Shown here piece after piece: positions 23,267 through 25,661 of a DNA stretch of 64,000 bases. The notes under the pieces were generated by a model that searched no databases, was not told the origin of the DNA, and saw only the letters and a program-made list of their open reading frames with translations. The stretch lies in the NCBI RefSeq assembly GCF_002943425.1, contig NZ_PTRA01000001.1, positions 992,001-1,056,000 of the forward strand, written 5' to 3'. The translations under genes and the position numbers were made by a program. The first letter of the stretch is position 1. Every line of letters starts with the position of its first letter. This DNA is from Siphonobacter curvatus (GTDB lineage: Bacteria > Bacteroidota > Bacteroidia > Cytophagales > Spirosomataceae).

Positions 23267-23695
23267 TTAGCAACTGATCTTTCCGACGCGAGTGGCATGT
23301 CTTCCTGCTTCGAAAGAAGTATCCAGGAACGTTTGTACGCAGGTTTCCGCAATTTCATAGGCAATGAAACGAGCGGGAATGCAAATGACATTTGCGTTGT
23401 TATGCTGACGGGAAAGTTCGGCTAATTCCCGGCCCCAAACCAGAGCTGCCCGAACATCCTGATGTTTATTCGCCGTAATGCAAACGCCCTGACCACTGCC
23501 GCAACACAAGACGCCAAAGTCCGCTTCCTGCGTCTCGACCGCTGAAGCCACGGGATGAGCAAAGTCTGGATAGTCAACGGAATCAAGGGAGTAGGTACCA
23601 AAGTCCGTGACGTGATGACCTTGCAGGGTAAGGTAATCGGCCAGGCGTTTTTTGTAATCAAATCCGGCGTGATCGGAGCCGATAGCAATTTTCAT
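23267..23695 (-). CDS. rpiB: Ribose 5-phosphate isomerase B
   Basis: LacAB/RpiB-family sugar-phosphate isomerase interconverting ribose 5-phosphate and ribulose 5-phosphate in the pentose phosphate pathway. From the ATG at 23695 (MKIAIGSDHAGFDYK) it has 142 residues, normal for RpiB. The active-site cysteine segment GVLCCGSGQG near residues 62-71 and the HNNANVICIPAR segment near 98-109 are conserved. A longer frame starting at 23731 adds 12 residues lacking family similarity. It complements the transaldolase gene at 11.2 kb in the same pathway, though not in the same operon. Confidence 0.94.
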   Translation of the reverse strand: MKIAIGSDHAGFDYKKRLADYLTLQGHHVTDFGTYSLDSVDYPDFAHPVASAVETQEADFGVLCCGSGQGVCITANKHQDVRAALVWGRELAELSRQHNNANVICIPARFIAYEIAETCVQTFLDTSFEAGRHATRVGKISC

Positions 23696-23835
23696 GCGTG
23701 TATTCGGAAGTTTAAGTAAAAACTGCAACATTACGGAGCGGAAAACAGTTATATCCTTCCCGTTTTACAAAAGTAGGGGCCTTCTATCAAAAGCCCTGCT
23801 CCAGCGGGAAAATGTTCAAGTAAACCACTTTTACG

Positions 23836-24707: not shown

Positions 24708-25661
24708 TTAAAAGGCGAGGTACGGTTCTAGTTTTTTCAGCGTAGCTTCGTCCAATAGCTTTACAGCTTTTAAATCAGCGGCCGACTGAAAAGCACCGTG
24801 TTGTTGTCGATAGGCTAGAATGGCTTTGGCTACGTAAGGCTTCAGGTAGGGGTGGCGAAACTGTTCCAGACTTACGTCATTGATTTTAATTTTCCGTACC
24901 GAACCCGGTCCCGTTAGTTGGCCGTGTTTTAGTAGCTCCTGTACTACGCTTGAATCGAGTCCCCAGACTTCCCGTAGTTGATTCTCGTTTACAAAACCAC
25001 CCAGATTCTCCCGGAATTTAATGATACGAAGGGCAAGCTTTGAGCCAATGCCGTAGACCTTCTTAAAATCAGTCGTATCTGCTTCATTTAGTTGAAAGGT
25101 AAACGTGGTACGCTCCGTTTTGACGAGTGTAGAACGGGTTTCGAAAACGGGCTTGGCATTTGAAGTGGAATAAAGAGGTGTTGTTGCGGGCAGACGAATG
25201 TACGCTTCCAGTTGCCGATACTGCTCTTCCAGGAAATCATAGATGCGTAGTAAATCTTCTTTTTTACGGAATATGCCCCCTTTGGATCGGTACTTGACGA
25301 TTCGCTCGGCCATCCAGCGGGCCACGCCTAATTCTTGTCATTGCTCGGAGGTGATGGTATTCGGGTTAAAGGCGAACAAACGCGTAGGTTTACCGAAACG
25401 CTTGTTGGGGGAATGGTTGTAATCGCGGGAATCGTGTTCGGTGTATGCTTTTTGCGTTTCAGACTGCACCTCCAACTGGGCCATCAGCGTGTCAAGCTTT
25501 TGGACATCCGGCGAATCCTGCACAGAATCAGGAAACAAATCCAGTACAAAAGGAGAGATAAGCAGTACAATTAGCAAACTTAGCAGAACCAGAAAGCCCC
25601 GTGATTCGGTGCGACTGAAGCCAAAATAATTCCGTACTCATTGGGTTAGTTTGGAAGGCAT
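24708..25661 (-). pseudogene. Helix-hairpin-helix (ComEA-like) protein gene with two in-frame TGA codons
   Basis: This minus-strand frame runs 317 codons from the ATG at 25661 to the stop at 24708, interrupted only by TGA at 25638-25640 (codon 8) and TGA at 25338-25340. No frameshift occurs. It encodes MPSKLTQ, TGA, VRNYFGFSRTESRGF, a membrane helix (about residues 24-40), a linker, FAFNPNTITSEQ, TGA, QELGVARWMAERIV, and several HHH motifs such as YGIGSKLALRIIKF and PYVAKAILAYR. Homologues are membrane-anchored HHH proteins that may bind DNA. Trp fits both TGA positions by family expectation. Other genes here end in TGA, so the code is standard. Readings: recent decay, sequencing error or readthrough. 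Confidence 0.75.

Follow-up and report, generated by a model that had tools for sequence, protein, structure and literature searches.

In Bacteroidota, a competence role for a helix-hairpin-helix (HHH) protein has been tested experimentally in Riemerella anatipestifer, the only such test within the literature surveyed. In the portion of that study covered here, eight genes proved essential for natural transformation, including those for the HHH protein, ComEC, DprA, ComF and RecA (PMC8459023). The same portion describes the HHH protein, RA0C_RS02645, as predicted to be periplasmic, with its HHH at residues 236-301, and as essential for transformation. In DNA receptors of the ComEA family, a hydrophobic N-terminal run is followed by HHH_3 motifs, an arrangement shared by the protein described below. 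Competence-gene loss in other bacteria is already in print (PMC11472951, PMC6299819, both cited from excerpts); according to the first of these excerpts, a loss of transformation can seldom be put down to inactivated competence genes, comM in Acinetobacter being the exception. The case presented here resembles those, Acinetobacter comM for example, in that transformation genes appear to be lost within a lineage. It differs in what is affected and how: elsewhere it is mainly comM and mainly mobile elements, to judge from the same excerpt (PMC11472951), whereas in Siphonobacter curvatus point changes and small indels are found in a ComEA-like gene, comEC and dprA. In the part of the literature naming Siphonobacter that was surveyed, no title concerned transformation.

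The ComEA-like gene lies in the 6.39 Mb genome of S. curvatus (G000, 19 contigs), in a stretch of 64,000 nucleotides on contig C1 (C1:992001-1056000), which we call the window and whose positions are used below unless C1 is named. A frame of 317 codons plus a final TAA runs on the minus strand from 25661 to 24708. Its translation confirms what an earlier note on this DNA had read there, namely that the sole internal stops are a TGA at codon 8 (25638-25640) and a TGA at codon 108 (25338-25340), each preceded by CAA. The note had also claimed that there is no frameshift and that one protein runs before, between and after the stops. Both points hold: the frame aligns without a gap across its 317 codons to that of the nearest relative, Siphonobacter sp. 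BAB-5405 (G003), and, with TGA read as Trp, it matches HHH_3 (PF12836) at E 1e-39, with 134.9 bits against a Pfam cut-off of 27. The match falls into three stretches, all on the minus strand, at 25194-25370 (C1:1017194-1017370), which contains the second TGA, at 24933-25094 (C1:1016933-1017094) and at 24717-24896 (C1:1016717-1016896). A hydrophobic run at codons 22-40 (25542-25598, minus strand), judged by eye, is a probable membrane anchor. Reinitiation was considered and rejected, since the ATG overlapping each TGA belongs to another frame and the longest uninterrupted in-frame remainder, 205 codons from a GTG (24708-25325, minus strand), lacks the hydrophobic run.

The ComEA repeat-region model TIGR00426 is passed by this protein (72.7 bits, cut-off 53.1), but the full-length ComEA model TIGR01259 is not reached (74.5 bits, cut-off 152.35), so we class it as ComEA-like and not as ComEA. 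It departs from the ComEA family in having three HHH_3 stretches within 317 codons, in falling below that cut-off and in being interrupted. Profile matches to the solved ComEA chains 8dss, 8dfk and 2duy were obtained (E 1.9e-10, 6.8e-4 and 1.6e-3, respectively). The top solved-structure match, however, is EEPD1 (E 1e-11) and not ComEA, and KIF22 is matched weakly; thus, the fold signal is that of HHH proteins in general. Like RA0C_RS02645, the window protein is a Bacteroidota HHH protein, and the two are candidate orthologues. A role in DNA uptake is suggested by its family and by the surveyed portion of the Riemerella study (PMC8459023). Elsewhere in the S. curvatus genome, HHH_3 has single matches at three further places, the frames there being given as 718, 433 and 687 codons long.

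Further information was obtained from the five other Siphonobacter genomes that formed the comparison set. Four of them carry the HHH gene, uninterrupted in every case, and no match was found in the fifth (G002, a genome 92% complete). Family-wide, 206 of 222 genomes, and 178 of the 181 good ones, carry the gene, with one match per genome except for a single genome with two partial matches. S. curvatus alone has internal stops among the 150 family matches listed. Set against these intact orthologues, the S. curvatus copy carries disabling changes, as a pseudogene does. At codon 8 the four genus relatives have W, W, W and T, and at codon 108 all four have W. Given this Trp in three of four and four of four relatives, each stop looks like a TGG codon that became TGA on the S. 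curvatus lineage, and a single change at each site, as the earlier note had proposed, is the natural reading. The fit of Trp, also claimed there, stands at both sites within the genus but fails for codon 8 beyond it. Among 55 loci of named genomes, the four genus relatives included, codon 108 is W in 38, L in 14, F in 2 and M in 1, whereas codon 8 is W in only 3, L in 18, Q in 11 and other residues in fewer. An internal stop counted in one of these loci (L123) sits at the C-terminal end of its protein and was set aside. Judging from this alignment, the Trp of codon 8 is dispensable in the wider family.

The codon before the second site is CAA in two of the four relatives and CAG in the other two; before the first site it is CAA in the nearest relative and CGC, CGC and CAG in the other three. 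On this comparison, CAA probably predates the stops at both sites. Two hits of the same type in one gene, which had been called unusual, are merely mildly so: with the branch's own mutation spectrum, the chance that both are TGG-to-TGA is about 0.016, a figure calculated post hoc. Two such changes need no special mechanism.

As the HHH protein is ComEA-like, comEC and dprA were examined, both having been picked a priori as partner genes from general knowledge of competence. In S. curvatus comEC (C1 about 2279059-2281121; L184 808-2870), the Competence domain is found in two frames that meet at model position 126/127, and alignment with BAB-5405 places at the join a 4-base difference that lies outside any base run. 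The gene is open over 757, 701, 696 and 714 codons in G001, G002, G004 and G005, that is, in four of the five genus relatives. The copy of BAB-5405 (G003:C43, L186) has a separate one-base frameshift, on which we do not rely because six other genes of that genome are shorter beside one-base indels. Within the family, 214 of 222 genomes give a comEC match, and four of these, S. curvatus included, give two. The dprA of S. curvatus (C1 about 379600-380500, minus strand of L191) is split into three pieces. The central piece is read in a different frame and is bounded by two indels, one where an A run has gained a base and one where a T run has lost a base; the frame from the ATG of the gene ends after 136 codons. 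One open frame of 462 codons was ruled out for this gene by three stops between the outer pieces. In all five genus relatives, dprA gives a single continuous match. A motif search for ComM and ComF over about 18% of the S. curvatus genome detected neither, a coverage too small for the result to carry weight.

The background of broken genes was taken from 241 gene pairs compared between S. curvatus and BAB-5405 (149 from the 204 kb surrounding the window, 32 from the comEC region and 60 from the dprA region), aligned pieces of the two genomes being 82.6-95.4% identical in the window region. Pairs covered over less than 75% and damage near gene ends were excluded from the count, so that the background is a lower bound. 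Thirteen pairs were flagged on the S. curvatus side. On inspection, four proved broken in S. curvatus; six have the longer frame in S. curvatus, which makes the BAB-5405 copy, beside one-base indels, the damaged one; and three are doubtful (C-terminal differences in genes of 1251 and 149 codons, and a 102-codon ORF). The four are the HHH gene, comEC, dprA and a Zn_dep_PLPC-like gene, the last named from a weak match below cut-off. This pseudogene (C1 about 392589-393537) is disabled by a frameshift, a TAA and a TGA that stands at a Trp codon; the relative's copy (L211 8055-9002) is intact. Since the comEC and dprA regions had been chosen for those genes, the background is 1 in 238, or at most 4 in 238 with the doubtful pairs. 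Both partner genes being broken, two of two, gives a Fisher p of 1e-4 against the former and 5e-4 against the latter.

These figures bear on whether the HHH gene could be a plain pseudogene unrelated to competence, with comEC and dprA broken by coincidence or by sequence errors. The unrelated decayed gene shows that pseudogenes occur in this genome, and both dprA indels lie in base runs, the commonest place for errors and slippage, which counts against a joint loss. However, coincidence sits badly with the excess of broken partner genes over the background, and the comEC change is outside base runs, so we consider this explanation unlikely. In our judgement there is a good probability that the HHH gene became a pseudogene fairly recently, as part of a loss of DNA uptake. 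The shortfall from the full-length ComEA model, the better match to EEPD1 and the excerpt on inactivated competence genes (PMC11472951) speak against this reading. Inactivation was among the options offered in the earlier note, and the frameshifts in comEC and dprA of the same genome add a reason for it.

Its two other options, a sequencing or assembly error and tolerated UGA readthrough, did not fare as well. An error at both TGA sites would be easier to accept because one assembly alone stood for the species in this comparison. However, a single gene would have to hold two G-to-A errors, when clear damage in S. curvatus affects 4 of the 241 compared genes, and for this reason we regard it as very improbable. 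In the window, the word CAATGG shows no depletion (36 occurrences, 31.2 expected), which argues against a wholesale miscall at that word; a systematic miscall there was rejected as a candidate. CAATGA is rather frequent in the window (47 occurrences, 33.6 expected, a count reached by 3 of 100 shuffles).

Under tolerated readthrough, Trp would be inserted at both UGA codons some of the time, yielding a little of the protein. Several observations are in its favour: the frame is otherwise free of gaps, Trp suits both sites in the genus, and Ka/Ks against BAB-5405 is low (0.19, matched or exceeded by 7 of 133 genes). TGA is also the rarest stop, yet used (33 of 303 long ORFs in C1 512001-1516000, with 194 for TAA and 76 for TAG); the chance that both stops are TGA is 0.036; and a third TGG-to-TGA change is present in the Zn_dep_PLPC-like gene. 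But since that gene carries a TAA and a frameshift besides, decay in S. curvatus is not confined to TGA, and comEC and dprA are broken by frameshift. The losses from two leaky stops would, moreover, multiply. Codon 144 (25230-25232, minus strand), within the same frame, is Leu in the window copy at a conserved place, being Pro in all four genus relatives and in 33 of 51 distant loci, and Leu in none of the 51.

The decoding machinery points the same way. Among the best 150 of 344 candidates scored, 46 tRNA matches were found in S. curvatus, every one within loci scanned with ARAGORN; at these loci there is one tRNA-Trp, with anticodon CCA, and no credible tRNA with anticodon UCA. The sole UCA call, a tRNA-SeC, was rejected as a chimaera: on the sequence and Rfam, its start falls within the T arm of one tRNA-like piece and its end within a second piece. 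Such pieces lie side by side at C1 about 2692188-2692371 (L074 139-322), and it was two of these that ARAGORN had joined. For tRNA-Sec, the best 150 of 738 candidates scored gave six weak matches, none above cut-off. The RF2 gene prfB is present (487.5 bits) and has no stops. We also screened the same 1.004 Mb (C1 512001-1516000) for in-gene stops with coding signal on both sides, a screen that is blind near gene ends, as at codon 8, and that replaced an earlier coding-score screen (94 hits) which was too loose. Its 22 hits comprise 16 TAA, 3 TGA and 3 TAG. Inspected by eye, one of the three TGA belongs to the HHH gene, one closes a gene whose neighbour starts five codons later, and one lies on the strand opposite the ORF at 23267-23731. 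Apart from the HHH gene, no in-gene TGA was recognised in the 1.004 Mb; the TGG-to-TGA change of the Zn_dep_PLPC-like gene lies beyond that stretch. Two TAA flanked by coding signal, with no ATG within 30 codons (C1 732868 and 733562, minus strand), perhaps mark another decayed gene. As tRNAs, RF2 and the screen give readthrough no positive support, we think it highly unlikely, and one candidate for UGA readthrough is thereby removed. What is seen looks like ordinary gene decay and not like a changed genetic code.

Returning to a pseudogene within a loss of DNA uptake, we hypothesize that the intact protein, with its hydrophobic N-terminal run and three HHH stretches, would have acted in natural transformation by binding incoming DNA outside the inner membrane. 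Two G-to-A changes on the lineage would then have turned Trp codons 8 and 108 into TGA. With a stop at codon 8, translation should end after 7 residues, so that no anchored receptor would be made. The wider loss to which this would belong also takes in comEC, the gene of the DNA channel in the inner membrane, which the 4-base difference puts out of frame, and dprA, which has two frameshifts of one base each and meets a stop behind the first of them, 136 codons from the start. On these genomic grounds, natural DNA uptake has probably been lost in the S. curvatus lineage. The prediction is that S. curvatus is not naturally transformable, and that natural transformation may be possible in relatives whose genes are intact. 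That three genes have decayed together also speaks for a part in competence of this HHH family, which is present in 206 of the 222 family genomes. It is tempting to go further and to propose that natural transformation has been dismantled in parallel within Siphonobacter, comEC being broken at different places in S. curvatus and BAB-5405, and that joint decay identifies this HHH family as the ComEA that functions in Cytophagales; we hold this as a tentative idea, with the chances on the low side.

The age of the loss can be approached through the substitutions since the split from BAB-5405. In the HHH gene, the window copy has 20 nonsynonymous, 24 synonymous and 2 nonsense changes and the BAB-5405 copy 11 nonsynonymous and 23 synonymous, with 25 unpolarised; the nonsynonymous excess on the window branch is not significant (p 0.26). 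The corresponding nonsynonymous to synonymous counts are 34:52 versus 27:53 on the BAB-5405 branch for comEC, and 9:17 versus 3:12 for dprA, the latter over 261 codons with two stop positions upstream of the start omitted. Pooling the three genes gives p 0.14. A wholly neutral HHH branch would be expected to hold about 50 nonsynonymous and 3 nonsense changes, and by a moment estimate about a fifth of the branch was neutral. Relaxed selection on the window copy is suggested by these counts but is not significant, and the Ka/Ks of 0.19 also weighs against the pseudogene reading. In the HHH protein, ten residue changes are assigned to the window copy, eight to BAB-5405 and 17 to neither, and residues absent from the 51 distant loci were introduced by five of the ten window changes and by two of the eight in BAB-5405.
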